Source of the DNA: a virus | Virus record (IMG/VR): IMGVR_UViG_3300017917_000493 | Location: 1-21,771 of that record | Strand: one strand, 5' to 3' | DNA: 21,771 nt | Shown: piece by piece, positions 1,933 to 19,922 of the stretch | Layout: every line of letters starts with the position of its first letter | How positions within the stretch are numbered: position 1 is the stretch's first letter | Notes under the pieces: generated by a model | Database searches by the model: none | What the model saw: the letters and a program-made list of their open reading frames with translations, nothing else | What the model was told of the DNA's origin: nothing | Program-made: the position numbers and the translations under genes

Positions 1933-2574
1933 ATGCAGACCATGGCCTTATTTGTCAGCGATCCCTACTGCTCCGTCCAGTGCGCTAATGGAATAATACA
2001 CTGTCTGAGTCGGGATTATCAGATACGTCTATTTGGCCCTAGACCCGTGGAAGACTCATTTTGGCGTGATGTGGATCTAGTCTGTGTGCCCGGAGGCGAG
2101 GGCGATTCGGAAAGTTTCCATAGATTAATGATCAATCATAGACAGGATATACGCAGTCACGTTTGGGGAGGCGGGCAGTATCTAGGCATCTGCATGGGCG
2201 CATACTGGGCGGGATCACACTATTTGGATATCCTAGACTCTGTGGATGCTGTGCAGTATATAAGGCGGCCCTGCACAGATACTCGACGTCCACATGCTAA
2301 AAATATCTCAGTTCGTTGGCAGGATCGGGAGACAGAAATGTTCTTTTACGATGGCTGTGCTTTGGTAGGAGATACTGGTAAATTTACCACAGTGGCCAGT
2401 TATACTAACGGCGATGCCATGGCCATACAGCAGGGGCACATTGGAGTCATAGGCTGTCACCCCGAAGCGGAACCGTGGTGGTATGATAGTTATACGTGGA
2501 TGCAGGGTCTGTGGCAGGACCATGGGGCCCTGCTTCGTGACTTTGCCTTAGGCCTGCGCTTCGCCCCAGCGTAG
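1933..2574 (+). CDS. Class I glutamine-amidotransferase-like protein (BPL_N type)
   Basis: This 213-residue protein has a single alpha/beta domain. It carries a VPGG turn at residues 52-55, the nucleophile elbow GGGQYLGICMGAYWAG with Cys87, and CHPEAE with His176 and Glu178. Together these form the Cys-His-Glu triad typical of class I amidotransferase/DJ-1-like folds. The elbow wording (GGxYLGICxGAYxA) is closest to the biotin-protein-ligase N-terminal family. The BPL catalytic domain is absent, so it stands alone. The ATG at 1933 was chosen; GTG at 1930 or ATG at 1942 are alternatives. No Shine-Dalgarno is seen, and a TATAAATA ends 6 nt before the ATG, so the mRNA may be leaderless. The 3' end overlaps the convergent giant tail gene by 27 bp. 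The substrate is unknown, and a link to the neighbouring pqqA is only a matter of position. Confidence 0.75.
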   Translation: MQTMALFVSDPYCSVQCANGIIHCLSRDYQIRLFGPRPVEDSFWRDVDLVCVPGGEGDSESFHRLMINHRQDIRSHVWGGGQYLGICMGAYWAGSHYLDILDSVDAVQYIRRPCTDTRRPHAKNISVRWQDRETEMFFYDGCALVGDTGKFTTVASYTNGDAMAIQQGHIGVIGCHPEAEPWWYDSYTWMQGLWQDHGALLRDFALGLRFAPA

Positions 2575-5500
2575 AATTAAGTTAGCAGTGGCATTACTGC
2601 CTGCGACCTTATACACGTTGATAGCCAATACGTCCGGACCGTTGGGGAATGTACCTCTACCACCAATAGCAGTAGCAGTTAATTCTTTCAGTGCTTCTAG
2701 GCTTAATTCACCTGTTTCACCCGGATTAGCAATAAATGAAAATACCTGTTCACCCGGTGTGGCATAGTCTGCACCAAACTGGAATGTTATTGTGCCTGCG
2801 GCGCTGAGTGTACCCGAGAACGTTTGGTTAAAGGTCACACGATATACAGTAGTGCTGGCAAACGTTCTAGTTGTGATCTGCTGTACCGCAGAACCCGCTG
2901 GGAACGCTGTAACACTGGAAGCAACTCTAGTGCCCTGTGCCGCGCCCGAACTTAACCAACTTGCTGAAGTAAAGAACAAGAAGTTTCTGTTGGTGTAACT
3001 AGCGGCTGAACCAGCGGCTGTTACAGTAACGCTTTGACTGTTGGCTGCACCTGTAGGGCTGGTAGCATTGGCATTTGCTGACATTACAATACGTGTGTAG
3101 TTAGTACCGGAAATGTTTACATAACTCTGTGTAATTGAGTTGATGGTCTGACCGCCAGTGATGTAAGTGCCTAGGCTCAGAGTATCACCGATGGCCACTC
3201 CTGAACTTGCATAGGCCGCATCTGTGATCAAGAAGTCGCTTCTTGAACTACTCAATGCTGAGTTATAGGTAGCAGTCAGCGCACTGGTCACTGTAACAGT
3301 GACGTTGTTGCCTGCGCCACTAGGACTGCTACTGTTAGCGGCAGCACCCATGACAATTCTAGCATAACTAACGTTGGCTATGGTCACAAAGTTTGTGGTA
3401 ATAGTACTGATACTCTGTCCACCGGTTAAGTATGTTGTAGCACTGACTACGTCTGATACAGCCTGCGTGGTAATCTGTGTGTTAGGTACTAGGAAGTCTG
3501 TTCTAGCAGTGCTTAGAGCAGTAGCATAGGTCACAGATGCTTCAGCACGGAAAGTAATACCGTTAACTGCGGTATTCTGCGGACTAGTGTTGTTGGCATT
3601 AGCAGTCATTACAATACGTGCATAGTTGATTGAGTTAATTGTAATAAAGTTTGATGTAATACTTGATACACGCTGTCCGCCTGTGACATAAGTGCCCACA
3701 CTGATCAAATCGCCCGCTCTAATAGTAGTCTGCCAACCATTGACTGTGGTCTGCGGAATTAAGAAGTCACTGCGACCTGTACTAAATGCATTAGTGTATG
3801 TGCCATTCTGACCGTTGGTAATTGCCGGAGCATTACCTGTAACTGTAGTTGAGTTAAAACTTGTAGCAGTTAGTGTAGTAGTTGCCGCGTTAAATGCTAC
3901 TGCTGTTAAGGTAGTAGTAAATGCGCCCTGTATTGTAGCAGTGCTAGTTGAACTGCCTCCAGACCATGTTACAGAACCGCCGGCTGCTACCTGTGCAAAA
4001 CTTGGTTGTCCACCAGACGCACTGCTCTGTAATCCAGTCCAGGTAATCTTAGTTGGGTCTGTAGGATAGTTACTTGGATTTAAAATACCTTCAACAACCA
4101 GCGCACCTGTTACACCGCTGTCAGAAGTAATAGAAATACCTGACAACAGTAATTGCGCACGGTTTAGTAATTCGCGTTCACCTAGGTCACCAATCTGTGC
4201 GTTTGACACGCTAGGTGCTAGTCGAATTAAGAATGCTGTTTTCTTATCAACACTGACAGTAACCGCTGTACTTGCGTATGAGAAGATGTAACCACGATCA
4301 CTGTCGAATTGTCCGTCAATCATAAACGCAGATCCCCAGTGACTGATGTTTGGTGTAATAGTATTAGATACTAAAATAACACCAGCACGTTCACTGTGAG
4401 TGGCTGCAGATCCTGCTGAGAAGTTACGTTGACTACCTGCTACAAACTGTGTTAGGTTTGCCGCACGTACACACCCTGTTAGAGCTGTACCGCTGTTACC
4501 TGTATAACGAATTAATTCATTGTCAACGATAACTGTACCAGCACTAGGGAACCAGTAGCAGTCTTCTTCACTCATTGGTATTGTTGTTTGACTGTCAGTC
4601 ATTGAGGCTGTTAGTACGCCCTTAGCACCTTCGTTGATAACTTCATAACGAACAGGTTGGTTACCAGTACGCATATATGCTTCTGTGTTTACGTTTGAAT
4701 TACGGAAACGATGTGCAAAGATATAGTTACCTTCACTGCCTCTTAACATAAAATCAATAAATCCAGCACCATACCATGTGTGCTGAATACCAATCATCTG
4801 CATCTTAGTTGGATCTAAAATATAACCACTGGGTCCTGCACCGTTTAGACTATCTTGATTCCAATCTTCTTGTGGAACAACTAGATCAACAGTTTTAAGC
4901 ATTTTTGCTTCAGTTACATCAGTGACACCGCGATAGTCGGGTGTTACATACATCAGTGTATCGCTGGCAATCTGTGATACCACGTGGGTCATTCCTCGAA
5001 TAACTACACGATCTCCTTGTGCTAGTTGTTGAGTAAATCTAGTGTTAGTTCCGTTTACTGTGCTACTGTTACTTTGAATACCAATAACACCGGCACATTG
5101 GAATGTTGAGCTACGACGTACTACAGCCATTCGCTGTCCGTCATATTGCCAGAACATGCCGTTTTGATCATCAAATATACCAGAACGAATTGTGGAACCA
5201 TGCCACTTACGAATGCTCATTTGGCATGGATTATCTAACACTGCTGTGGTCGAACCCAGTGTCTTCTGTGCTAGAATTCTTAACACACGTTCGTTAACAA
5301 TGTCTGTAACGATGTAGTTACCGTTGTATCCTTCAGTTAGTACTCCGCTAATACCAATTTCACCACCAACTTGACAGCCATGATCTGTATCATCTGTGGT
5401 CAGTGTGATTAAACTACCAACTGCTGTTCCTGTAGAAGTTAAACTGCGTATGTCGTAACTAGGTGCAAACAGAGCACCGGTATTATACATTACACCCTTA

Positions 5501-8500
5501 CCAGATTGATAACGAATGTATTTCTTACTCATACGTATAGCAGTTGATCCGTGTGCTGGGCCAGCAGTACCTAACTGAACACCGCCGTCAAATGGTCTAT
5601 GAGTAAAGAATCCGTCTGGGCGTCCGTATACAACACCTACTAGGGTGTTATCGATAGTTCCGGGAGCTCGTGCAGTATAACGTATTGTTGTAGCACTTGG
5701 AACTTGCTCAACAAAGAATGGACCAGCGGCTAACTGTGCTCCTGTTCCTGAACTTGTAATAGAAGTAGTAATTGTATTGCCTGGAACGAAACCGTGTGGG
5801 CTGGTAAAATTAACCTGTATAGTTGCAATAGCACTGTAGGACAATGTAGTCCCGTTTGGAATAGACTGTGTAGTTGAGTCGTTGATTGTAAATGCGCTGA
5901 TAAAAGACTTAGTTGGCGCAGTAATTGTAGTTCCTGCGGCTGATACTGTTTGAATTAGTCCACCAGCATTAACGGTGGCTACTTGAATACTACCGTTAGC
6001 ATCAACGCTTTGAATTTGTATACTAGCGTCGCCGTTGCCGCCAGTGATATTAACAATTTCACTGGCTACATATCCACTACCTCGTTGATTAATAACAACG
6101 CTGTCAATGACTCCGTCTAAATCGCTGTCGGTGATATCTAATGTTAGTCCTGTTCCAGATCCGCCGCTGACCGTAGCAACATCTGTTGCGGTGATATATC
6201 CAGTGCCGCCAACTAACGAAGCACCGTTTAAAGATAACACTCTACCACGACTAAATCCTGATAAGATTGTAACAACTTCTCCTGGTCCATAATTTGCTCC
6301 AGGATTAACTACAGAAACTGCAAGAATAGAACCATTACCGTCAACTTGAATATCAACTGTTAATCCTGATCCTATACCAGATGCTGTAGTTGAAAGATTT
6401 GTTAGAGTTGTATATCCGAGACTTGGAACAATAGTAGATTGATTTAAAGTGGCTACAGTGTTTTTGTCGCTGGCTGTTGCTACTGTAACTGTACAGTCGT
6501 TAGTTGGTGTTGTACCACCTAATTGTGTTCCTAAAATTGTTATGGTATCGCTTTGCGCATAAGAAGTTCCAGGATTGGCCACAGTAGCAGAATATCCAGA
6601 TAAACTTCTCACAATAGTAAATGTTGCGCCCGATCCTGATCCGCTGGTACTGTCCTGTGTTCTGCTAGTATAAGTTTGATTAGTACCAGTTATATCAGCA
6701 GTTAGAGCTCCACTTAAACTTACAGTGTTACCAGTAACGTCTGTGACAATAACTGCTTCGCCGTCACCACGATCAAATATCAAACCAGATGATATACCTG
6801 TAGTGCTATTCACTGTTACAGAAGTGTTTCCAATAACAGCATTAGTTAATAATTGTGTGCTGGCAGCAACCCCGCCCGGACCAGTTACCGCAGTAATCTG
6901 TGCTCCAGTTGGGATACCAGTTCCAGTTATTGGAGCACCAACTGGAGGTATTGCTCCAGATCCAAAACCAATAACATCTCTACCACTAGGTGTAATTAAA
7001 CTAGTTGATACAGTGCCCGAACTACCCGCAGAAAATACTTGGAAACTAGGATTACCTACTGATGCGTTGGTATAGAATCCACCTTTACGTAATTGTGTAT
7101 AAGTGCTGGCCAATACCTGACCGTTTGTTGTTCCTACTTTTGATTTTGCATAATATGTAAATTGATTAGCCGCTGGTACGGAGAATACTAAGAATGATCC
7201 TTCAGCACGACTAAATCCACTGACAGTATTAGCCAACGCTTTAATTGTAAATGGATCACTGACTGCAAATCCGTGACTGCTCTGCGTAGTAACTGTGATT
7301 AAACTAGCACCAGTACCGCTGGTTCCAGAACTAGCATCTGTAACTACGTTAGTTACTGCTAGATCACTACCGGGAATTTCATATAATGACGGGTAGTTAC
7401 GCATTAGTGCAAGTGCCTGCCATTTAGTTGGTTGAAGTCCATATTCAAAGTCTGCGTCAAGCATACTCTGAGGAATACCAACTTTCATACGTTCCATAGC
7501 GTCTGTGGCTATTGGGTTTAGTCTAACTTGTTGTTCTTTACCTTCAACAAATATCTGGATGTTGTCAGTAACCATATGACTTGATGTATCTACATCAAAT
7601 GATAGTGTTGTTATTTTATCATTGCCATATAACAAACCAGCAAAGTCGTCATCATAATCTTCGCTATAGGTTACATCACCGCCCGTATTTGAATCTGCAA
7701 AGTTATATAAAATCGTGTTTCTGCTAGTGTTAGTAACTAACAAGAAATCTTTTAGTTTATAGAATCCAGGAACTTTGATATAACCGCGTTGAGAAACTTG
7801 TGTTGGAAGGTAATCAGTTCCCCCTGATATGACTTCAATAATTGTTGTGCTTAATTCTTTTAACTTAGTATCTGAGAATGTCTCTGGAATAATACCGTTG
7901 TCAATAACTTGACTTTCTACGATTTGACGTGCTGGATAAGCAACGTTGGCCCAAACATAATTTTCAACTAAGTCTCGAATAAAAGTATGAGCAAATACTT
8001 CTGGTTGACGATCTCCATCAACAACAGCAACACCACCTTCGTAGTATCGAGTAGCATTAAACCAAGTCTGTTTGTTGCCGCCATTCTTCATGTCGGTTAG
8101 ATAACCTTCAATAATGTAGCTCATATCTCTACGACACTTGTCTTGATTGTATGTAAAGAATATAAATGGTGAAATATTGTTAGCCACATTGTATGCAATA
8201 TAGGCAATAGTTTCTTCAAGGATAAACTTCTTATTAGCATCAAACAGTGCAACTGCATTAGGATGTAGACCGCCGCTCTGTGGGTCAGGTGCTACAACTT
8301 CTGGTAATGTGCTTGGGCCAGTAGTTAATACATCAATAATAATATCTGAATAATCAGTAAATGCTGTAATGCTTGAGGTTTCTGCATCATTTTCTAAAAT
8401 TGTCTGTTCAACATCATATTGATAATTTGCATGATATGTGTTGGTAAAAATGTAGTTGTTAATTAAATCTTGAATAAAATTTTGTGTATTAATTTCAACC

Positions 8501-9828
8501 TGTGAATTTGATAGTTGAATAACTCCGTTAAAATAATAGCGTGAACCTACATAATGAGTTAATTCATTACCACCATATGTAAGGTCGTGTATGTATGCAT
8601 CAATGACATAGGTTGTATCGCGTCGACATTTTGCTTCGTCGTAGGTATCGCCAACATATAACGAATTGTAGTTATAACTAATGCTAGGTAAACTTGTTAA
8701 TCCGTTGATAATTAAATCTGTAACAATATCAATCAATGTATCAAAACTTGTAATACCACCTGCTTCACCTGCTGAACCAGTTAATACCTGTGCAGAAACA
8801 ACAGGACTTTGTTGCGGAGTTGCCGCTACTCTAGGAATTACGTTAGTATTGATTAATGTTTTTAAGAAATCATAGACTGCGGCTTCTTGCGCAGGATACA
8901 ATAATTGTTCTTCACCGTTGAGCCAATATTGACGACCAATTCGGATAGTTTCAGCATTGCCGCCGCCCGTAATATCTGTTATCCACGCATCTACTAAGTA
9001 TCCAACATCTCGTTTACATTTTTCTCTAGTAGTAGAATCGTAGGGATATCCACCAAACGGATATGTCGGTGGTTCTATTGCTGGAAGACTTGATAATCCG
9101 TTTTGAATAACTGCTTTAGTTGCATTTAATAATGTAGTTACAGTAGTTGAAACACCGGCTTCTGCACTAGAGCCGCTGATATTTTGAGTCGCTGTAGTTT
9201 GTAAAGATGTATAAGCAGTTCTTATTAAAACATAATTGTTAATTAAAGTTTTTACAAATTCATAGGTAGCAACTTCTGGTGTTCTAGGACCGTCAATCTG
9301 AGCTACGCCATCTAACCAGTAGAATTTTAAAATTCTTCTAGTTTCAGCATTGCCACCGTATCTAATATCTTTAATTAGAGCATCAACAACATAGCCAATG
9401 TCTCTTAGACATTTTGTTTGATTATAGGTAACAATATTAGCAGATGTAAATGGCGCAATATTACCAGCAATCTGACTGTTAATCCATGCCACAGTTTCAT
9501 ATTTGATAAATTCTTTGTTGTTAGTTAACAGTGTAACAGCATTAGGAGCAAGGTTCTGCGAAGTTTGTGCGGCAATTTGATTAGTAACATAGGCAGCCGC
9601 TTCTTCTTTGATAAAGTTCTTATTATTTGTAAGTTGAACTATTGTATTTGGATATGCAGTAGGAGCAACGCTGGGCGTGTTGTAACCATAGTTTAAATAT
9701 CCTATTGATTCCTCTATGATAAAATCTTTGTTGGCCGTTAATAATGCCACTGCATTAGGATATTGATCATACGGTTGTGGAACTACCGCAGGAACAAATC
9801 TGTAATCTTTAATCTGTTTCTTTGCCAT
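2548..9828 (-). CDS. Giant tail fibre/virion structural protein (2426 residues)
   Basis: ATG at 9828 has a good AAGGA upstream. The N-terminal ~570 residues alternate short helical units (LLTxNKxFIxxE, four copies) with four KCxRDxxYxxDAxxxDxxxGGN units. A Gly/Ser/Thr-rich beta region follows with several YxxGDxITI-type modules. A long non-repetitive part comes next (containing KWHGSTIRSGIFDDQNGMFWQYDG and HRFRNSNVNTEAYMRTG), then three tandem ~88-residue repeats. The C-terminal domain contains NPGETGELSLEALKELTATA and ends ILRWGEAQA. This architecture is typical of very large structural proteins in T4-like phages of marine bacteria and suggests a fibre or baseplate-attached spike, probably used in host recognition. 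It lies 11 nt after the preceding fibre gene on the same strand; an ATAAGTACT element inside that gene may drive it. The structural role is confident; the exact virion position is not known. Confidence 0.85.
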   Translation of the reverse strand: MAKKQIKDYRFVPAVVPQPYDQYPNAVALLTANKDFIIEESIGYLNYGYNTPSVAPTAYPNTIVQLTNNKNFIKEEAAAYVTNQIAAQTSQNLAPNAVTLLTNNKEFIKYETVAWINSQIAGNIAPFTSANIVTYNQTKCLRDIGYVVDALIKDIRYGGNAETRRILKFYWLDGVAQIDGPRTPEVATYEFVKTLINNYVLIRTAYTSLQTTATQNISGSSAEAGVSTTVTTLLNATKAVIQNGLSSLPAIEPPTYPFGGYPYDSTTREKCKRDVGYLVDAWITDITGGGNAETIRIGRQYWLNGEEQLLYPAQEAAVYDFLKTLINTNVIPRVAATPQQSPVVSAQVLTGSAGEAGGITSFDTLIDIVTDLIINGLTSLPSISYNYNSLYVGDTYDEAKCRRDTTYVIDAYIHDLTYGGNELTHYVGSRYYFNGVIQLSNSQVEINTQNFIQDLINNYIFTNTYHANYQYDVEQTILENDAETSSITAFTDYSDIIIDVLTTGPSTLPEVVAPDPQSGGLHPNAVALFDANKKFILEETIAYIAYNVANNISPFIFFTYNQDKCRRDMSYIIEGYLTDMKNGGNKQTWFNATRYYEGGVAVVDGDRQPEVFAHTFIRDLVENYVWANVAYPARQIVESQVIDNGIIPETFSDTKLKELSTTIIEVISGGTDYLPTQVSQRGYIKVPGFYKLKDFLLVTNTSRNTILYNFADSNTGGDVTYSEDYDDDFAGLLYGNDKITTLSFDVDTSSHMVTDNIQIFVEGKEQQVRLNPIATDAMERMKVGIPQSMLDADFEYGLQPTKWQALALMRNYPSLYEIPGSDLAVTNVVTDASSGTSGTGASLITVTTQSSHGFAVSDPFTIKALANTVSGFSRAEGSFLVFSVPAANQFTYYAKSKVGTTNGQVLASTYTQLRKGGFYTNASVGNPSFQVFSAGSSGTVSTSLITPSGRDVIGFGSGAIPPVGAPITGTGIPTGAQITAVTGPGGVAASTQLLTNAVIGNTSVTVNSTTGISSGLIFDRGDGEAVIVTDVTGNTVSLSGALTADITGTNQTYTSRTQDSTSGSGSGATFTIVRSLSGYSATVANPGTSYAQSDTITILGTQLGGTTPTNDCTVTVATASDKNTVATLNQSTIVPSLGYTTLTNLSTTASGIGSGLTVDIQVDGNGSILAVSVVNPGANYGPGEVVTILSGFSRGRVLSLNGASLVGGTGYITATDVATVSGGSGTGLTLDITDSDLDGVIDSVVINQRGSGYVASEIVNITGGNGDASIQIQSVDANGSIQVATVNAGGLIQTVSAAGTTITAPTKSFISAFTINDSTTQSIPNGTTLSYSAIATIQVNFTSPHGFVPGNTITTSITSSGTGAQLAAGPFFVEQVPSATTIRYTARAPGTIDNTLVGVVYGRPDGFFTHRPFDGGVQLGTAGPAHGSTAIRMSKKYIRYQSGKGVMYNTGALFAPSYDIRSLTSTGTAVGSLITLTTDDTDHGCQVGGEIGISGVLTEGYNGNYIVTDIVNERVLRILAQKTLGSTTAVLDNPCQMSIRKWHGSTIRSGIFDDQNGMFWQYDGQRMAVVRRSSTFQCAGVIGIQSNSSTVNGTNTRFTQQLAQGDRVVIRGMTHVVSQIASDTLMYVTPDYRGVTDVTEAKMLKTVDLVVPQEDWNQDSLNGAGPSGYILDPTKMQMIGIQHTWYGAGFIDFMLRGSEGNYIFAHRFRNSNVNTEAYMRTGNQPVRYEVINEGAKGVLTASMTDSQTTIPMSEEDCYWFPSAGTVIVDNELIRYTGNSGTALTGCVRAANLTQFVAGSQRNFSAGSAATHSERAGVILVSNTITPNISHWGSAFMIDGQFDSDRGYIFSYASTAVTVSVDKKTAFLIRLAPSVSNAQIGDLGERELLNRAQLLLSGISITSDSGVTGALVVEGILNPSNYPTDPTKITWTGLQSSASGGQPSFAQVAAGGSVTWSGGSSTSTATIQGAFTTTLTAVAFNAATTTLTATSFNSTTVTGNAPAITNGQNGTYTNAFSTGRSDFLIPQTTVNGWQTTIRAGDLISVGTYVTGGQRVSSITSNFITINSINYARIVMTANANNTSPQNTAVNGITFRAEASVTYATALSTARTDFLVPNTQITTQAVSDVVSATTYLTGGQSISTITTNFVTIANVSYARIVMGAAANSSSPSGAGNNVTVTVTSALTATYNSALSSSRSDFLITDAAYASSGVAIGDTLSLGTYITGGQTINSITQSYVNISGTNYTRIVMSANANATSPTGAANSQSVTVTAAGSAASYTNRNFLFFTSASWLSSGAAQGTRVASSVTAFPAGSAVQQITTRTFASTTVYRVTFNQTFSGTLSAAGTITFQFGADYATPGEQVFSFIANPGETGELSLEALKELTATAIGGRGTFPNGPDVLAINVYKVAGSNATANLILRWGEAQA
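3011..3805 (-). repeat. Three tandem ~88-residue repeats in the giant tail protein
   Basis: Near the C terminus of the 2426-residue protein three consecutive units share the pattern (Y)xxA(F/L)S(T/S)xR(S/T)DFL, then TY(V/L/I)TGGQxxxxIT, then (Y)(A/T)RIVMxAxANxxSP. The units run at about 3536-3805, 3280-3535 and 3011-3279 (boundaries approximate). The identity is clear in protein but partly diverged in DNA, so the duplication is not recent. These are likely beta-rich fibre segments. Confidence 0.8.
6903..6947. repeat. 10-bp perfect inverted repeat inside the giant tail gene
   Basis: CTCCAGTTGG (6903-6912) is the reverse complement of CCAACTGGAG (6938-6947), separated by 25 nt. It lies in codons for a Pro-Val/Thr-Gly-Ala-rich stretch, so it may simply come from repeated PxGA codons. 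In the mRNA it could fold into a hairpin. Confidence 0.55.
8100..9425 (-). repeat. Four KCxRD...GGN repeat domains in the giant tail protein
   Basis: Four units contain KC(L/K/R)RDxxYx(V/I)(D/E)(A/G)xxxDxxxGGNxxT, at about 9345-9425, 8945-9022, 8560-8640 and 8060-8140. The spacing is roughly 130 residues for the first three and 165 for the last. Each is followed by a short (Y/W)-rich segment and a conserved helical FI(Q/R/K)xL(I/V)(N/E)N(Y/N)(V/I) run. The arrangement suggests stacked, similar domains at the N-terminal end of the fibre. Confidence 0.8.
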
Positions 9829-11055: not shown

Positions 11056-12516
11056 TTAAAAAGGATCTTTAGTTGGGTCGGCGGAACCGCCCATATTACT
11101 TAAAAATTGGCGTAATTTAGTGCTATCAGCCTGTGCTTTAATTTTAGGTAAAGGAACTCCCTGTGTAGGATCAACTGTTATTTCTCCAGTACCTAGATCA
11201 ACAGATTCTGCCGTAGATTTGCGTTTTAAATCATCTAAAATTGCACTGCTCTTTGGACGATATTCGTTGTCACCTTCAATCCCCGGATCAGTGATGCGTA
11301 GTGTATCAATGTCAAAGTCTAGGTCAATTTTCATACCTACACCGCTTGAACTACGAGTTTTCATTAACTGTATTTGATACTTGCCACGTTCACGCATAGC
11401 ACGACTAGTAAAGATGCCAAACACGTTATCTGCTGTTTGAATCTTACTTAAACCACCTGAGATGTGACTGTGATCAAATTCAACTTCTTCAACAGCACCA
11501 CGGTTCAACTGTGCCGCAGTAACAAACACACATTGTTTTTCCATGGCTAAGTTGCGCAACTCTTCTGCTACATACTTGTCTTTGACAAACAAGTTTTCCG
11601 CTGAAATCTTTTTAGAAATAGGCAACAGCAAGTCCATATAGTCAACTAACAGTACGTCTACCTTACGGCCCATTTTAATTTCGTATTCTTTTAAGTAAGC
11701 ACGGATATCGTTGGTATTTTTACCAGACGGCATATATTTGACCTGATATGCTCCAGATTTTTTACCAATCATTTTAACTTTCATTTCAACATTATCAATG
11801 TCTTTGAAAATATCTCTGGTAGGAATACCTGTGGTCATTGAATCTACACGCATACTAACTAATGCTTCACTCAACTCCAGTGTTAAGTAAACAACATTCA
11901 GTCCTTGTAGGGCCCAGTTTACGCCAAGGTTAGCAAGAAAGAGGGATTTACCTGCACCGGATCCGCCGGCAAAAATGTTAAGTTCTCCACGGTTCATACC
12001 TCCAAATAGTCGTTTATCGACTGTGTCCCACCCAGTCTTAACTTGTCCGTTTTTATCTTTAAGTCCTAGCAGTCGGCCCTTAGGATCACTCCAGTAGTCT
12101 GTGCCCATGTCTTTTTGTAAGCCAATCTGCACAGCCTGTTTGATCATATCTTCTACTGGACCATAGTTGCCTTCTTCCAACAAGTCTGCTGATTTTAGAA
12201 TAGCACGTTCAAGACCCTTGTGACGAGTAAATGTTTCAAACTCTGTCATTAACCAATCGAAGTGTTCATCTTTGAGTACCCCTGGGTCATTCAAATCAGT
12301 CTTAGTTGCTGCCTTAACCATTTCAAATGTTGGCAATGCGTTATGTTCTGTGACGTAGCGATTCATAAACTCCGCCGCATCTTGAAGTTTACGATCAAAT
12401 AATGTGGGATCAAAAATGCTTTGACAACGAACGAATGTGCCAGCATCACTGAGCATCATTTCCAAATATAATTTCTGTATATCGTATCCGTAGTCTGTAT
12501 TTTGTCTAGTTGTCAT
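11056..12516 (-). CDS. Replicative DNA helicase, T4 gp41/DnaB type
   Basis: This 486-residue hexameric 5'-3' helicase unwinds DNA at the phage fork and partners the primase. Seen: an N-terminal helical domain (about 1-135); Walker A GGSGAGKS at 184-191; Walker B VDVLLVDYMDLL at 286-297; a sensor-like TAAQLNR at 333-339; SGGLSKIQTADNVFGI at 353-368; and the arginine-finger segment MKTRSSSGVG at about 385-394. The length is usual for gp41. ATG at 12516 sits 6 nt after the -10 box of a perfect TTGACA-17-TATAAT promoter and has no Shine-Dalgarno, so its own transcript would be leaderless. The primase and a 74-residue gene lie just upstream. A tail fibre gene follows immediately downstream behind its own promoter element. 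Confidence 0.95.
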   Translation of the reverse strand: MTTRQNTDYGYDIQKLYLEMMLSDAGTFVRCQSIFDPTLFDRKLQDAAEFMNRYVTEHNALPTFEMVKAATKTDLNDPGVLKDEHFDWLMTEFETFTRHKGLERAILKSADLLEEGNYGPVEDMIKQAVQIGLQKDMGTDYWSDPKGRLLGLKDKNGQVKTGWDTVDKRLFGGMNRGELNIFAGGSGAGKSLFLANLGVNWALQGLNVVYLTLELSEALVSMRVDSMTTGIPTRDIFKDIDNVEMKVKMIGKKSGAYQVKYMPSGKNTNDIRAYLKEYEIKMGRKVDVLLVDYMDLLLPISKKISAENLFVKDKYVAEELRNLAMEKQCVFVTAAQLNRGAVEEVEFDHSHISGGLSKIQTADNVFGIFTSRAMRERGKYQIQLMKTRSSSGVGMKIDLDFDIDTLRITDPGIEGDNEYRPKSSAILDDLKRKSTAESVDLGTGEITVDPTQGVPLPKIKAQADSTKLRQFLSNMGGSADPTKDPF

Positions 12517-12551: not shown

Positions 12552-12756
12552 TATATTCAAGTAATTTAGGCCGGTATGTTTCATTCCATTCGTGCTGTTT
12601 ACTAGCACTAAAACTTAATTCCATTACATCTTTAGCATCAGTGTCCGATACACTAGGATCTGTAAAAATTCTTATAAGATCCTGAAAAACTTCTTCCGGA
12701 AGTCCTTGTCCATCTGGACCACCATGCTTTGGTATTTTTAATTTTCTTTGAACCAT
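12532..12756 (-). CDS. Small protein between primase and helicase (74 residues)
   Basis: ATG at 12756 lies inside the 3' end of the primase gene (19-bp overlap), suggesting translational coupling. The product is hydrophilic, with MVQRKLKIPKHGGPDGQGLP at its start, then a helix EEVFQDLIRIFTDP, and a second helical part SDTDAKDVMELSFSASKQHEWNETYRPKLLEYI. There is no metal site or membrane segment. The place between primase and helicase suggests an accessory of the primosome, which is inference from position only. I do not recognise the family. Its last codons carry the -10 region of the helicase promoter, which constrains this end of the gene. Confidence 0.72.
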   Translation of the reverse strand: MVQRKLKIPKHGGPDGQGLPEEVFQDLIRIFTDPSVSDTDAKDVMELSFSASKQHEWNETYRPKLLEYIDTNKK

Positions 12757-13745
12757 TTCTTAGCTCTTAGTTGTATCTTAAGATCTGTGGTTTCAACAGA
12801 ATTAATAATTAGATACAATGTATAAAGTTTACCCAATTTACAAACAGCATCATTGATATCCTTAATACCTTCGGGCCAGTCTGGCATACTAACACCATAA
12901 CCGTTTTTAATTGCCTGTTCTACTGTGCGAGCTCCGTCAGTGTCGCGATCCGGAACAACGATGACTTGACGATTTAGTCTATTGATTAACAGTGCCTGCT
13001 TGTCCATTATTTCAGCACCTAGTATAGCAACACCATCAATACTTAGCGCATCAAATGGTCCTTCGCAGACAATTACGAATTCTCTATCCTGTGTTTGTCT
13101 ATCTAAATTAAACACATATCCAGGAGTTTGATCGGATATGTATTTGGGTTTAGCATCATTAATTGCACGGGCAGTATAACCAACAATAATGCCGTCTTTA
13201 TAGAAAGGAATGATTATTCTGTTTTTGTATCCTATCTTATTGGTCCAGTAAAAAGGATAACTGTAAGGATCTATATGTCTATTATTTCGTAGATAACAGA
13301 ATGCAGTAATTAAGTCTTGTTCTGTATTTTCCCAGCCATTTAGTTCAATCCAAGTACTCCATGCCTCGAGACTCTTTGCACCTTCGGGCAATTCACGTTC
13401 TTCAAACTTTGGCAATGATACTGCTTCTAATGCTTGAGCATCAGACTCTATTTTTAATGCTTCTAGTGATAATTTAGTGATAACATCGTCTGGAGCACCT
13501 AACCATTGCAGTAGGTACTTCATTTTTCTAGTTAGATGACGACCCGGTTGATAACTGGCTTTGTATCCACAATTGAAACAATGATAACTAACGCCTTCAC
13601 CGTTTTGGATCATTCCGCCACGTTGTCTAGTATCGGCTGTAGTACCATTATGGTGGCAACAAACCGCATTGAATTTAATCCAACCACTAGGAGTTTGTTT
13701 ACGGCGTGCCGGAAGGTACGAATAGATTATCTCACCAATACTCAT
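12738..13745 (-). CDS. DNA primase, T4 gp61/DnaG type
   Basis: This 335-residue primase synthesises RNA primers for lagging-strand DNA together with the gp41-type helicase. Seen: an N-terminal zinc-binding domain (CCHH at 29-32 and HCFNCGY at 55-61); a middle region with RIIIPFYKDGIIVGYTAR at about 176-193; and a Toprim catalytic domain with CEGPFDAL (Glu228), PDRDTDG (Asp266, 268, 270) and KDINDAV (295-301). The length and order fit gp61. ATG at 13745 lies 7 nt downstream of a TAAAAT -10 box with a perfect TTGACA, and no ribosome-binding site is present, suggesting a leaderless mRNA. It heads the primase, 74-residue protein and helicase unit. Confidence 0.93.
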   Translation of the reverse strand: MSIGEIIYSYLPARRKQTPSGWIKFNAVCCHHNGTTADTRQRGGMIQNGEGVSYHCFNCGYKASYQPGRHLTRKMKYLLQWLGAPDDVITKLSLEALKIESDAQALEAVSLPKFEERELPEGAKSLEAWSTWIELNGWENTEQDLITAFCYLRNNRHIDPYSYPFYWTNKIGYKNRIIIPFYKDGIIVGYTARAINDAKPKYISDQTPGYVFNLDRQTQDREFVIVCEGPFDALSIDGVAILGAEIMDKQALLINRLNRQVIVVPDRDTDGARTVEQAIKNGYGVSMPDWPEGIKDINDAVCKLGKLYTLYLIINSVETTDLKIQLRAKKWFKEN

Positions 13746-14894: not shown

Positions 14895-14903
14895 GTATTT
14901 ATG
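14895..14903 (-). promoter_or_regulatory. Candidate late promoter of the baseplate gene
   Basis: The minus strand reads CATAAATAC, one base from TATAAATA plus the C shared by other boxes in this window. It lies 33 nt ahead of the ATG at 14862. It overlaps the divergent plus-strand start codon at 14901, so the two opposite units share the same 15 bp. Confidence 0.5.
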
Positions 14904-15272
14904 GTAAAATTGACGGAAGACATCAGAGAGAACTTCCCCTTTATTTCAGTGGTGCATTACGGAGGCATAGAATACGTAGGCATCATAATTAATCAAGATC
15001 AGTACGTAACTAGCCTCTACAACTACGAATCCTTAAAAACTGAGGAAGATCGAAAGGTCTTCCTAGAATTAGGAGAAGCGTGGTGGTGGGAGAGCAATCG
15101 CACGATTCCTATTAATATTTTTCTAAAAGCAGAGATGGAACCCTACAAGTACTCTGTTATGACTATGAATACTAAGGATGTAACTGTGGTGTTTGGGCCC
15201 ACAATAAATTTACACAATATTTCAATAAAACGTGTAAAACGCAAGGTAATACAGTTAGTTAGAAAACGTTAA
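14901..15272 (+). CDS. Unknown 123-residue protein on the opposite strand
   Basis: This is the only + strand gene between 2575 and the right edge. The product begins MVKLTEDIRENFPFISVVHY and continues GGIEYVGIIINQDQYVTSLY. It has an acidic middle ending in WWWESNRTIPI and closes with a basic tail, SIKRVKRKVIQLVRKR. It has the look of a small globular beta/alpha protein that binds nucleic acid or a protein partner. I recall similar conserved unknowns in T4-like phages of marine bacteria but cannot name a function. It starts 7 nt after a TATAAT without a ribosome-binding site, and its stop overlaps the convergent polymerase-like gene by 4 nt. Confidence 0.75.
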   Translation: MVKLTEDIRENFPFISVVHYGGIEYVGIIINQDQYVTSLYNYESLKTEEDRKVFLELGEAWWWESNRTIPINIFLKAEMEPYKYSVMTMNTKDVTVVFGPTINLHNISIKRVKRKVIQLVRKR

Positions 15273-15847
15273 CTGTATTCGTAACTGATACCTTCGCAGA
15301 TTAAATTCATCTGCACAACCACTGCTTGAGCATAGGCAACAGCGTGTGCTTTCTTAAAATAGTATTCATCATTCTCTGGCTTGGTCCACACTTCCGTCAT
15401 CACCGTAGTCCATTCTTTCCCAATCAGATAGCGTTTCGCTGGACGTATCATCGCCAACACTGCCGCTAATTGTTCTATAGACTTTGGTGCCATCTGCCTT
15501 AGTATAGATCCATGACCGTTCACATGGAACAATAAGTTCACGAAGTCGTCTTGTAACAGTAAATCCCATAGTGGTTCCGTTTCCATTAATTGAATAAGGT
15601 GTGCCTCATCTCGTACACCTTCATAGATACCTACATTTAAAAAATCTATTTTAAAATATCCGCGATCTTCTGCTTCTTTGTAATCTATGGTGCTAAGACC
15701 AGTAGAAGGGTCATGTGGAATAGAATGACAATATATTCCTGTATTGTGTTTTTTAAAACTGCCATTTTCTTTAATAGCCGCAGTGATAGTTTCTAGTTTA
15801 TCTAACACTAGATCTCTATCTGCAAAATCTATGTCAATGTCTGGCAT
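15269..15847 (-). CDS. Miniature C-family DNA polymerase (Pol III alpha)-like protein
   Basis: In only 192 residues this protein carries, in order, the hallmark blocks of bacterial DNA polymerase III alpha. These are PDIDIDF (2-8, Asp5 and Asp7); a KHNTGIYCHSIP block (33-44) like KHAGGVVIAP; YFKIDFL (64-70, Asp68) like LVKFDFL; LFHVNGHGSILRQMAPKSIE (106-125) followed by AMIRPAKR (132-139), like VFQLES...LVALFRPGP; and FKKAHAVAYA (164-173) like FNKSHSAAYA. All three metal-binding aspartates of the palm are kept. The PHP, OB and tau-binding parts and about 200 residues of fingers are missing. ATG at 15847 has a strong AAGGAAGG upstream and overlaps the stop of the zinc-finger gene (TAATG). Whether it polymerises, or only binds DNA or nucleotides, is unknown. 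Confidence 0.78.
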   Translation of the reverse strand: MPDIDIDFADRDLVLDKLETITAAIKENGSFKKHNTGIYCHSIPHDPSTGLSTIDYKEAEDRGYFKIDFLNVGIYEGVRDEAHLIQLMETEPLWDLLLQDDFVNLLFHVNGHGSILRQMAPKSIEQLAAVLAMIRPAKRYLIGKEWTTVMTEVWTKPENDEYYFKKAHAVAYAQAVVVQMNLICEGISYEYS

Positions 15848-16581
15848 TATAAATTACCTTCCTTAACTACTTCTGCTATCAACTCTTGATCTGCTGGATA
15901 TACTTTAAAACGTCGAGCCCAATACTCCGGATCTAGTACTTCGAATACGATGCTTAATTGTTCGTCATTGAATTTACCTAATAATTCTCTTCCGGAGTCG
16001 CAGTTTAAAACTAACCAAGGACTGATTTTACCATCTTTGATTGCATAAACAGCACGATTAACACTTACATACTTAAAATAATGATTCCACTGGCTACTAT
16101 TTTCATTTGCCCAGTCCATCATTGTAGTTATACTACGCTGTAAAGCCACCTCGGCCGGTTCTTTCTTTATTAAGTCTAGAACGTATTTATAGTACAGTTC
16201 TTCTCTACACCAGTGATCTAATTTAACTCCACTGGTTACTACGAAATCGATATATCTGTCTGGATATAGTGGATCAACATTACTAAGGAAACTACCAAAT
16301 TTTACAAATGCATTATAATATTGACTGCCAGCAAACTCTTCGTAGGTTTTTGTATGTTTGGCTTTTTGAGTTAGTTGAAAAAATCTTACATACGTCTGAT
16401 AACCCAACAGAACATGTTTTTCGTTTTTAGCCAGATGTCTACGTTTCTGTTCACACATATGAACAGTTAGTGTAGATTCTTTAACATAGGCACTACCGCA
16501 GTATTGACATACGTAAGGCTTTTCAACTGTGCTCAATTTTATTTTTATTCCTTTGTGTTTTTCAAAAACATCTAAATTCAT
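15847..16581 (-). CDS. Zinc-finger protein of unknown function (244 residues)
   Basis: Near the N terminus lies a treble-clef or C2HC-like finger, VCQYCGSAYVKESTLTVHMC, with Cys25, Cys28, His41 and Cys43 spaced C-x2-C-x12-H-x-C and followed by a basic EQKRRHL. The rest is largely helical and rich in aromatic residues (TYEEFAGSQYYNAFVKFGSF; YYKYVLDLIKKEP; MMDWANENSSQWNHYFKYV), with no catalytic motif I know. The start overlaps the stop of the upstream gene by 4 nt, and the stop overlaps the start of the polymerase III-like gene by 1 nt. The two are thus tightly coupled and may act in one complex on DNA. DNA or RNA binding is inferred from the finger. Confidence 0.75.
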   Translation of the reverse strand: MNLDVFEKHKGIKIKLSTVEKPYVCQYCGSAYVKESTLTVHMCEQKRRHLAKNEKHVLLGYQTYVRFFQLTQKAKHTKTYEEFAGSQYYNAFVKFGSFLSNVDPLYPDRYIDFVVTSGVKLDHWCREELYYKYVLDLIKKEPAEVALQRSITTMMDWANENSSQWNHYFKYVSVNRAVYAIKDGKISPWLVLNCDSGRELLGKFNDEQLSIVFEVLDPEYWARRFKVYPADQELIAEVVKEGNL

Positions 16582-17045
16582 AAGGCCTTTTTAATATCTT
16601 TATCTTCCCACCCTAGGTCTCTTAAACGTTCTTTGACTTTCTTTTCAGTAGTCAAGGATGCCATTAATTCAAGTTCGTCCTCTTTCAAGTGTGGATATAG
16701 TGTTTCAAGAACTCGAACTATTTTGTTGTTGCCTTCTTTCTTTTTATGACCAATCCATTCATGAAAATAAATTTTCTTTTCTTCATTTCCGGTCATGCAA
16801 ACAAGATACCATAACAGTTTAGGATGTTTACTGAGATTAAAATAATTTCTATTAAAATACTCGTTGGTTTTAAAAATAGCCAGTTCCTGCGCTTCTCTGT
16901 CGCTGGTTTTTATCGAACTGGCATATCTTAGTAAAAGATAAAGACTGATCTGTTTGCGTTGTTCTTCTGTGAAATTATCCCACAGATCTCTAGCACCCAT
17001 ATCAATGGCCGCTGTTTCATCTTTGATTGTTAGTTTATCACTCAT
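16578..17045 (-). CDS. Helical protein of unknown function (155 residues)
   Basis: The product begins MSDKLTIKDETAAIDMGARD and is all-helical in appearance. It has a DLWDNFTEEQRKQISLYLLL segment, NLSKHPKLLWYLVCMTGNE, and a charged C-terminal region ELMASLTTEKKVKERLRDLG. There is no metal-binding or nucleotide-binding motif. It overlaps the 2OG oxygenase gene by 8 nt at its start, with no Shine-Dalgarno, which implies coupled translation, and the next gene by 4 nt at its end. I do not recognise a function. It belongs to the run of replication-associated genes between uvsW and the polymerase-like gene. Confidence 0.75.
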   Translation of the reverse strand: MSDKLTIKDETAAIDMGARDLWDNFTEEQRKQISLYLLLRYASSIKTSDREAQELAIFKTNEYFNRNYFNLSKHPKLLWYLVCMTGNEEKKIYFHEWIGHKKKEGNNKIVRVLETLYPHLKEDELELMASLTTEKKVKERLRDLGWEDKDIKKAL

Positions 17046-17664
17046 CTTTGGGGACTATCCTTGCATCAAATGCCATAACTGTTCTTGTACCTTGACCCTT
17101 CCATGGATAAACTGTATGTGCTAGGTAACTAGGGAATACAATTACAGTGCCAGGCACTGGTTTATATTTCCACGTATCATTCATTATAAATTTACTTACA
17201 TCTCTAGTTTCTGGTAATTTAAAAGTTATAACGCCGTCACTAGGATTACTGTTTTCTGCAAAATCTGGAGCAGTGATGTAAATGTTTCCACTGATATTGC
17301 CGCCTGGGTGACTGTGTAATTCTTGATACTGTCCTTGTTCTTGTCGAATGGTCCAAATACTAGTAACCACCGGTTTACATAATTTTAAATCTTCTGTGCC
17401 GCTTTGTGCAGAAACTATTTCCATGTAACCTTGACAGATAGTTTCTAACCATTTAACCAACCAGGTTACATCTAAATTTAATTCATTTGGATACACTTGA
17501 ATTTGCTGTCCCCCGCGGATACTGATAAACGGATTTCCGCTGTCATTTAATTCAGGATGCCCGTGTAGTTGTTCTGCTAGACTGTAAATTTTACTAAATT
17601 CAACTGGCGGAACTTGGTCAATAGCCATTATGATTGGTTGAAAGTATGCTACCTTTAGAGTCAT
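17038..17664 (-). CDS. 2-oxoglutarate/Fe(II)-dependent oxygenase
   Basis: This 208-residue protein has a double-stranded beta-helix core. Seen: the metal-binding block ELHSHPGGNISGNIYI (His117, His119), a central beta part with DGVITFKLPE, and the distal PGTVIVFPSYLAHTVYPWKG (His183) with Arg194 in RTVMAFDARI for 2-oxoglutarate binding. The wording (SGNIYI, FPSYLAHTV) fits the putative 2OG-Fe(II) oxygenase family often carried by marine myoviruses. The expected HxD acid appears replaced (HSH). The substrate is not predictable and could be a protein or a nucleic acid. The start is supported by AGGAAAA; the gene overlaps its neighbours by 4 and 8 nt. It may act in a tailoring or host-modifying step. 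Confidence 0.82.
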   Translation of the reverse strand: MTLKVAYFQPIIMAIDQVPPVEFSKIYSLAEQLHGHPELNDSGNPFISIRGGQQIQVYPNELNLDVTWLVKWLETICQGYMEIVSAQSGTEDLKLCKPVVTSIWTIRQEQGQYQELHSHPGGNISGNIYITAPDFAENSNPSDGVITFKLPETRDVSKFIMNDTWKYKPVPGTVIVFPSYLAHTVYPWKGQGTRTVMAFDARIVPKDE

Positions 17665-18458: not shown

Positions 18459-19922
18459 TTATTCTAACCATTCTATCTTTTCTAAAGTGAATGGATATTT
18501 CGCTTCCTTATAGAATTTCTTTCGCTCTGTTAAATGCCTTTTTGCATATTTGCAAGTAGATGTTATGTCCCAGATTTGGACGAAGTCTTTGTCTTCTGCT
18601 TTTCGAATGCCTCGTCCAATGCTTTGGATAACGCGGACAAAGCTCTTTCCGGGCTCAAGAAGAACCAGATTAAAAATCCTTGGAATATTAAGACCCACAG
18701 CGGCCACACCGTAAGTCGCCACAATAACCTTTTTATCACTGTCTTTGACCTCATCATAGTGTTCCTTTCTTTCTGTAAGTTTAACTTCTCCGCTGATGAA
18801 TACGGAATCTGGGATGGCATCTACTATTTGTTTGCCTGCATCTAGCCTGTCTACTAATATCAATGTATTGCCTGAATCTTTAATTGAGTTACATAATTTT
18901 GCAATATAGCCAATTCTATCAGAATCTGTAACTAGATATTTTAATTCTTCCTGATAGGTTCTAAATTCTTTATAGTCCATCATCTGTACAATGTTTACAT
19001 GACATTGACTAAGCACACCTTTCTTTTGTAATTCATGTGCGGCTATTCGATTAACCACAGGACCAATTGTGGCTAATATACTGTGAAAATTAATTTCTTC
19101 TTTAGGGATCGTGCCAGTTAATCCCCAGCGTATTGGAGCATTAGCCATGTTCATGCTTAATAGTTTTTTAAGAACATCTGCCTTGGCTTGGTGAACTTCG
19201 TCGATGATTACACAGACTACTCCGTCAAGAAATTCTGCAAGTGTTAGAGACTCATTGTCATGACTTTTCTTATCTAATATGTTTAGACTTTGCCATGTAC
19301 AGATTGTATGTGTTCGATTTAATTCTTTTCTATCACCAAAGTATACACCTACATCTAAGCCAACGTTACGATAATCTTCTTCGGTTTGCACTACTAGACT
19401 TTTGTTAGGCACAATAACCAGTGTACGACCATAAGGTTCACAGAGCGCACTCAGTGTAGCAGTGATAATAGTTTTACCAGCACCGGTGGCTAATTCTTGT
19501 AGCCCTTGCGGATTTTCCATAAAACCATTAATTGCATCTAGTTGATAGTCTCGTAATACAATCGGTTGACCCTCTATAGGATGTCCTTTGGGCCATACCT
19601 TACCTTTGTCTGCCCAGTATTGATCTGTAATTTTTTCAAATTCAAATTTGTGAGATTGTCTAAGGTCTTCAATCTCTTCTATGTCAACACCGGACTCTTC
19701 TAGCACAGCCATGATAACATCTAAGTGATTTAGATAACCGTTTCCGCCAAGACCAAAGAATGTAGTCGTACCATCCCATCGGCCAAGTTTGTATTGAGGC
19801 ATGTGACGTGCATAAGGTAATTCAAATTTCAGTGCATTAGAAATTTTCCTGCGTATTTCCACAGGCAATCCTTCTAATTTAATATTGACTTCGTCTCTAA
19901 TGACTAATTTACAACTGTACAA
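18459..19922 (-). CDS. uvsW: UvsW-type DNA/RNA helicase
   Basis: This 487-residue superfamily 2 helicase unwinds R-loops and branched DNA, and in T4 it drives the switch from origin to recombination-dependent replication. Seen: an N-terminal substrate-binding domain with KLGRWDG (45-51), LRDYQLDAI (123-131), Walker A ATGAGKT (145-151), DEVH (241-244), LTGTIP (268-273), a second RecA domain with ATYGVAAVGLNIP, and motif VI QSIGRGIRKAED. The length equals that of T4 UvsW. The start is a TTG at 19922, following AAAAGGA at about 10 nt, and overlaps the preceding gene by 14 nt; the N-terminal fit to UvsW supports it. It is part of the minus-strand recombination/replication block. Confidence 0.95.
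   Translation of the reverse strand: MYSCKLVIRDEVNIKLEGLPVEIRRKISNALKFELPYARHMPQYKLGRWDGTTTFFGLGGNGYLNHLDVIMAVLEESGVDIEEIEDLRQSHKFEFEKITDQYWADKGKVWPKGHPIEGQPIVLRDYQLDAINGFMENPQGLQELATGAGKTIITATLSALCEPYGRTLVIVPNKSLVVQTEEDYRNVGLDVGVYFGDRKELNRTHTICTWQSLNILDKKSHDNESLTLAEFLDGVVCVIIDEVHQAKADVLKKLLSMNMANAPIRWGLTGTIPKEEINFHSILATIGPVVNRIAAHELQKKGVLSQCHVNIVQMMDYKEFRTYQEELKYLVTDSDRIGYIAKLCNSIKDSGNTLILVDRLDAGKQIVDAIPDSVFISGEVKLTERKEHYDEVKDSDKKVIVATYGVAAVGLNIPRIFNLVLLEPGKSFVRVIQSIGRGIRKAEDKDFVQIWDITSTCKYAKRHLTERKKFYKEAKYPFTLEKIEWLE

Follow-up and report, generated by a model that had tools for sequence, protein, structure and literature searches.

Whether a protein of 192 residues can by itself be a working DNA polymerase of the C-family, or is only one part of such an enzyme, is the question raised by a small gene in a 21,771-nucleotide stretch of viral DNA (hereafter the window). 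The ORF begins with an ATG and runs from 15847 to 15269 on the minus strand, while a plus-strand reading of the same interval meets stops throughout and was ruled out. The ORF noticed by the first-pass annotation is therefore real, its strand is the minus strand, and it is described here as follows.

15269–15847, minus strand: 192-aa ORF, probable C-terminal (Mg2+/template-side) subunit of a split minimal DNA polymerase III alpha (ORF; PHROG 11778, E=6.4e-68; AF2 model; structural match)

Comparison with relatives that are 78–85 per cent identical gives a dN/dS of ∼0.05–0.10 for this ORF, an approximate value as synonymous sites are near saturation. The small size of the protein might recall a host dnaE gained by horizontal transfer and now decaying, but the reading frame is intact and under strong purifying selection, homologues number in the hundreds, and phages of many proteobacterial hosts share the gene order. 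That reading is scarcely conceivable, and the conservation data already refute it.

The protein (hereafter the C-half) contains all five blocks that had been reported from its sequence, and they occur in the order found in DnaE.

15824–15844, minus strand: PDIDIDF, residues 2–8; invariant in 59 relatives and aligned to Taq 461 onward
15731–15751, minus strand: KHNTGIY, residues 33–39, a HAGGVV-like block; His34, Gly37 and Tyr39 invariant
15638–15655, minus strand: FKIDFL, residues 65–70, with Lys66 and the predicted third catalytic aspartate, Asp68 (E. coli D555); invariant and aligned to DnaE KMDFL
15434–15532, minus strand: reduced fingers block LF..P..IEQLA..LA.IRP.K, residues 106–138; Pro121, Arg135, Pro136 and Lys138 invariant; PF17657
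15329–15358, minus strand: FKKAHAVAYA, residues 164–173; His168 and Tyr172 invariant; aligned to Mtb DnaE1 NKSHAAGY

PHROG 11778, labeled ‘DNA polymerase’, is matched over residues 3–185. In Pfam the 192-residue sequence alone scores below threshold against the finger domain of Pol III alpha (PF17657; 13.6 vs. 22 bits), and its ferritin matches in the PDB (E 0.4–0.6) were set aside as chance. The finger domain is matched by 52 of 59 family members (best 4.4e-7), and the family profile run against the whole PDB matches DnaE chains only (nine distinct sequences, E 0.0045–0.027, in colinear pieces). By tblastn, 63 phage records match at 33–53 per cent identity, 61 of them over at least 80 per cent of the length; the carriers include RaK2-like jumbo phages, Agrobacterium phage Atu_ph07, Sinorhizobium phage Phosso, PA5oct-like phages of Pseudomonas, Salicola phage SCTP-2 and phages of Xanthomonas, Erwinia, Vibrio and Stenotrophomonas, and homologues in viral contigs add at least several hundred to these. 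Given the PHROG match, these phage records, the restriction of PDB matches to DnaE and the low dN/dS, the blocks are not a product of chance.

The residues invariant across 59 diverse relatives include Asp3, Asp5, Asp7, His34, Gly37, Tyr39, Lys66, Asp68, Pro121, Arg135, Pro136, Lys138, His168 and Tyr172. The metal ligands and active-site residues of E. coli alpha are D401, D403 and D555 (PMC3919608, PMC8485763), and alignment to Taq M461-P-D463-I-D465 places Asp3 and Asp5 at E. coli D401 and D403 (Taq 463 and 465). By this alignment the catalytic aspartates should be Asp3, Asp5 and Asp68, and the three may be expected to cluster. The claim that all three are kept stands, as each is invariant; their earlier numbering as Asp5, Asp7 and Asp68 does not, since Asp7 corresponds to E. 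coli D405, a conserved residue outside the three named magnesium ligands. His168 aligns with E. coli H760 (in KSHSAAY), a residue in contact with the deoxyribose that has been proposed as the steric gate (PMC8485763), and is probably a steric gate here as well.

The predicted structure points to the same family. An AlphaFold2 model of the C-half (pLDDT 91.0, pTM 0.72) returns only DnaE or PolC in the first 16 PDB rows of a Foldseek search, at E-values of just 1e-3 to 1e-2. In VIA-align the model (1–192) matches C-family entries in rows 1–15 (Z 6.1–9.3, 171–191 residues aligned), and the first row outside the family is an unrelated protein at Z 4.1. The model corresponds from end to end to Taq 461–841, E. 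coli 400–784 (with residues skipped within) and PolC 971–1358. The rmsd of these matches is high (4.9–6.2, or about 5 Å), which would fit a reduced and rearranged fingers region. The comparison with the C-family palm that the first-pass annotation had proposed was thus run, the model aligns with DnaE and PolC, and together with PHROG 11778 and the family profile it bears out the C-family relationship.

What the 192-residue chain does not contain is the GRGS triphosphate loop, which is carried by a separate phage protein. Searches of four complete jumbo phages with PF07733 found a second small gene far from the first, encoding a protein of 168–188 aa (PHROG 11127, labeled ‘DNA polymerase’; hereafter the N-half). 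In Atu_ph07, GAP32, Paride and Phosso this protein terminates in GxGRGSSVxSYxLxLIGxHxVxSIxYxLDxxEFL, with no more than one or two residues between this motif and the stop. All 55 N-half members examined match PF07733, and GRGSS is invariant in them. The matches found in phages nickie, ANB28 and MA9V-3 proved to be full-length DnaE and were not counted as N-halves, and a PADLOC search with either half gave no match to a defense system.

The first-pass annotation had taken the 192-residue protein to be a mini-enzyme in itself, a whole polymerase squeezed to about one-sixth of its length. This one chain does have the finger motifs along with the full set of three catalytic aspartates, as a complete mini-polymerase or nucleotidyltransferase would require, but the chain is without the GRGS palm segment present in every C-family enzyme aligned, and in all complete phages examined that segment is a separate conserved protein ending where the C-half begins. 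A self-sufficient enzyme is on this evidence very unlikely; the C-half is the part of the polymerase that follows E. coli ∼400.

The junction between the two proteins can be placed closely. The N-half model (pLDDT 93.0) aligns from residues 65–77 to its last residue with E. coli 278–280 to 393 and Taq 291–295 to 455 (VIA Z 7.8–12.0, the next row being at 2.0), and the match of the N-half profile to DnaE reaches E. coli 392–393 and Taq 454–455, while the C-half profile starts at Taq 461. Structures and sequence profiles agree on a break at E. coli 393|400–401, or Taq 455|461. On DnaE the profiles and models of the two halves fall next to each other, so that the chains tile the catalytic core and leave ∼6 residues between them. 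The first ∼62–65 residues of the N-half stand in the place of the PHP domain; they have no convincing match outside N-halves in the fetched loci, and VIA matches barely cover them. The models cover only E. coli 278–393 and 400–784, and the PHP, thumb, beta-/clamp-binding, tau-binding and OB parts are absent from both chains, in keeping with the earlier statement that PHP, OB and most of the fingers are gone (the thumb can be added to that list).

Cyanobacteria also encode DnaE in two pieces, which are joined by a trans-splicing intein. The phage break lies at a different point, and no intein remnants were found at the ends of the N-half and C-half ORFs examined: nearly all short N-half ORFs stop one residue past (D/E)FL, and in most C-half ORFs a Met precedes the first Asp by one or two residues. 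Among 191 N-half and 184 C-half ORFs none matched both halves, so no fused form was seen in this set. Without intein pieces the chains cannot be spliced, and if they work together they must pair non-covalently.

There is reason, then, to regard the 192-residue protein as the C-terminal subunit of a minimal C-family catalytic core built from two chains, and this explanation as a whole is considered probable. The N-half, with its GxGRGSS triphosphate loop, and the C-half, with its three aspartates and reduced fingers, would assemble non-covalently into one active site, which would add dNTPs by two-metal catalysis. Against a split core stand the ∼5 Å rmsd of the C-half matches, the Foldseek E-values of no better than 1e-3 to 1e-2, the PF17657 score of the window protein alone, which is below the cut-off, and the loss of the thumb, which would hold primer-template DNA.

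If the two proteins form one enzyme, it might be expected that they occur together. Both halves are present in Atu_ph07, GAP32, Paride, Phosso, SCTP-2, Vibrio 2.275.O, XacN1, CM1, fENko-Kae01 and Slicko01, and in most other phage records listed for either half. The N-half gene is located tens to hundreds of kb away from the C-half gene; the two were found far apart in W01–W09, W11, G001, G007, G008, G009 and others. The 21.8-kb window itself contains no N-half, and the two-gene arrangement of its own phage can be judged only through its nearest relative, G001 (270 kb; C-half 85 per cent identical), in which an N-half at 191424–191918 gives a full-length match to PHROG 11127. Among 19 large contigs that were selected as carriers of an N-half, a C-half was seen in 11; none was detected in G014 (277 kb), G018 (543 kb) or G030 (359 kb), even with a broader profile and PF17657. 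These three contigs may be incomplete and were not counted as counter-examples, though co-occurrence may fall short of universal. A Klebsiella record with no N-half (W12-3, 109 kb) is marked UNVERIFIED and is far shorter than its relatives. The 141-kb circular genome of Alishewanella phage Slicko01 (OQ508956; L357/L374/L375) carries both mini halves in the usual setting, and the system is therefore not limited to jumbo phages.

A B-family polymerase, which the first-pass annotation expected in such phages, was found in 19 of 19 genomes and large contigs tested, though none is visible in the 21.8-kb window, and every complete jumbo phage examined has it along with both halves. The B-family gene can itself lie in two parts: it is annotated as two adjacent ORFs in Slicko01, is split into two genes by an inserted homing endonuclease gene in Paride (OR805295 88000–94000; L373), and lies in two frames in Atu_ph07 and contig G019. 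The polymerase genes of this phage group seem prone to splitting.

The surroundings of the C-half, in the survey of relatives and neighbor genes that had been suggested for it, proved to be a conserved replication setting. Counts were drawn from 168 C-half loci and limited to those with enough flank. The window features concerned are these.

11056–12516, minus strand: gp41/DnaB-like replicative helicase, so annotated in relatives; 56/56 loci with >6 kb downstream
12738–13745, minus strand: primase (gp61-like, Toprim); 56/56 loci with >6 kb downstream
14901–15272, plus strand: convergent conserved gene, PHROG 11637, whose stop overlaps the stop of the polymerase gene by 4 bases
15847–16581, minus strand: upstream gene for a C2H2-zinc-finger-like protein, PHROG 11058, with a one-base overlap at the start of the polymerase gene (TAATG)
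18459–19922, minus strand: UvsW-like helicase; 66/74 loci with >6 kb upstream

Of the related loci, 159 of 165 have the zinc-finger gene; 143 of 156 have the convergent gene, every time on the opposite strand. A DnaQ-like epsilon exonuclease also lies near the C-half in GAP32 and XacN1. The conserved company of primase, gp41 and UvsW ties the C-half to replication and recombination. The zinc-finger gene is coupled to that of the polymerase and keeps its position nearly as strictly, and its product is a candidate partner; the weak match of this protein to Cas11 (E=0.005) was taken as chance. Two other genes of the window may be mentioned here. A 2OG-Fe(II) oxygenase-like gene (17038–17664) is inserted in the replication cluster and occurs in just 37 of the 168 related loci, and a 2426-aa ORF (2548–9828) probably encodes a tail or fiber protein, judging from its repetitive, low-complexity composition.

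The invariant place between uvsW and the primase and helicase genes suggests a short-patch role. Having neither a thumb nor clamp-binding parts, the two-chain core would be a distributive polymerase acting beside the phage B-family replicase, and its short-patch synthesis could serve to extend or hand off primers, to fill gaps, or in repair linked to recombination, with a partner such as the conserved zinc-finger neighbor perhaps helping to hold the DNA. A short-patch or second polymerase beside the primase and helicase would be the most likely function. A more specific reading is possible but is offered only tentatively: the C-family enzyme, obligately of two chains and without a thumb, would work at the phage fork as a second polymerase, paired with the B-family replicase (extending primers of the neighboring primase, for example, or filling lagging-strand or recombination gaps).

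The same neighborhood and the same missing domains bear on two other readings of the gene pair. With neither thumb nor OB domain left to hold a template, and with a primase and a helicase as neighbors, the pair might be catalytic without being a template-directed DNA polymerase, for instance as a nucleotidyltransferase of the RNA or end-adding type, or as an aid to priming. Both His168, the probable steric gate, and the finger motifs are nevertheless invariant, which argues for dNTP selection and makes this unlikely. Alternatively, the extreme reduction of the core, in phages that already own a B-family replicase, might indicate a catalytically idle accessory such as a scaffold, a clamp-loader decoy or an inhibitor of host Pol III. 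Such a protein would hardly be expected to keep the catalytic residues of both halves invariant (59 and 55 diverse sequences) at a dN/dS this low, and the clamp- and tau-binding parts that a decoy would need are missing; an idle role is quite unlikely on these grounds, and the decoy function suggested earlier is disfavored by the invariant catalytic residues. A split, dNTP-adding core remains the preferred explanation.

A split minimal Pol III alpha of group 2.2 jumbo phages has been described from sequence (Iyer et al. 2021, Viruses 13:63; PMC7824862) as phage-specific, encoded by two distantly located genes, and present in phages with a B-family polymerase, Atu_ph07 being a member of the group. 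By description, phage group and domain content the window protein fits the C-terminal part of that family, with no essential difference. Earlier, CBB had been credited with a truncated alpha of 172 aa (PMC5259590) and Atu_ph07 with an alpha subunit (PMC6102473); to judge from sizes and gene numbers, both reports would appear to concern the N-half. In GenBank a Phosso protein is labeled DnaE-like, and a note in the fENko-Kae01 record cites an HHpred match to E. coli alpha, while the labels of PHROG 11778 and PHROG 11127 give no sign that these proteins belong together as one enzyme. Both the family and the fact that it is split were thus in print by 2021, and the window is a further member; what is added here is a precise position for the break, the tiling of the two models on DnaE, the corrected set of catalytic residues, the lack of inteins and fusions, the strict synteny and a 141-kb, non-jumbo member.

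The phage pair shares motif order, fold and metal ligands with bacterial DnaE (E. coli alpha, Taq alpha, Mtb DnaE1) and PolC, and differs in having two chains, no PHP, thumb, clamp-binding, OB or tau-binding parts, and ∼360 aa rather than ∼1160. At that total it is perhaps the smallest enzyme of the C-family. Should the pair prove to be an active enzyme, it would mark the minimum that a bacterial-type replicative polymerase requires and would offer a natural, non-covalently split polymerase for study. Giant T4-like phages would then be keeping polymerases of two unrelated families at the same fork, a question already raised in 2021. No experimental test of the split enzyme was found in the literature searched; the exact break and the strictly conserved residues make such a test simple.

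Divided C-family genes also occur in unrelated phages. In Tenacibaculum phage Larrie (L356) DnaE is encoded by two adjacent genes (515 and 676 aa) with a break ∼57 residues past that of the mini-polymerase, and in Thomasclavelia phage TR-TP2 (L355) the two genes that make up DnaE have an HNH endonuclease gene between them. Finally, one lineage of marine phage contigs has the mini C-half in its usual place together with a second, single-chain and PHP-less C-family polymerase of ∼563 aa, located a few genes downstream of gp41 (L226:11127–12551; complete in L372:590–2281, minus strand, 563 aa; also L231, L237, L251, L263 and L266), whose nearest named record is the uncultured 484-kb phage LR756508 at 40 per cent identity.
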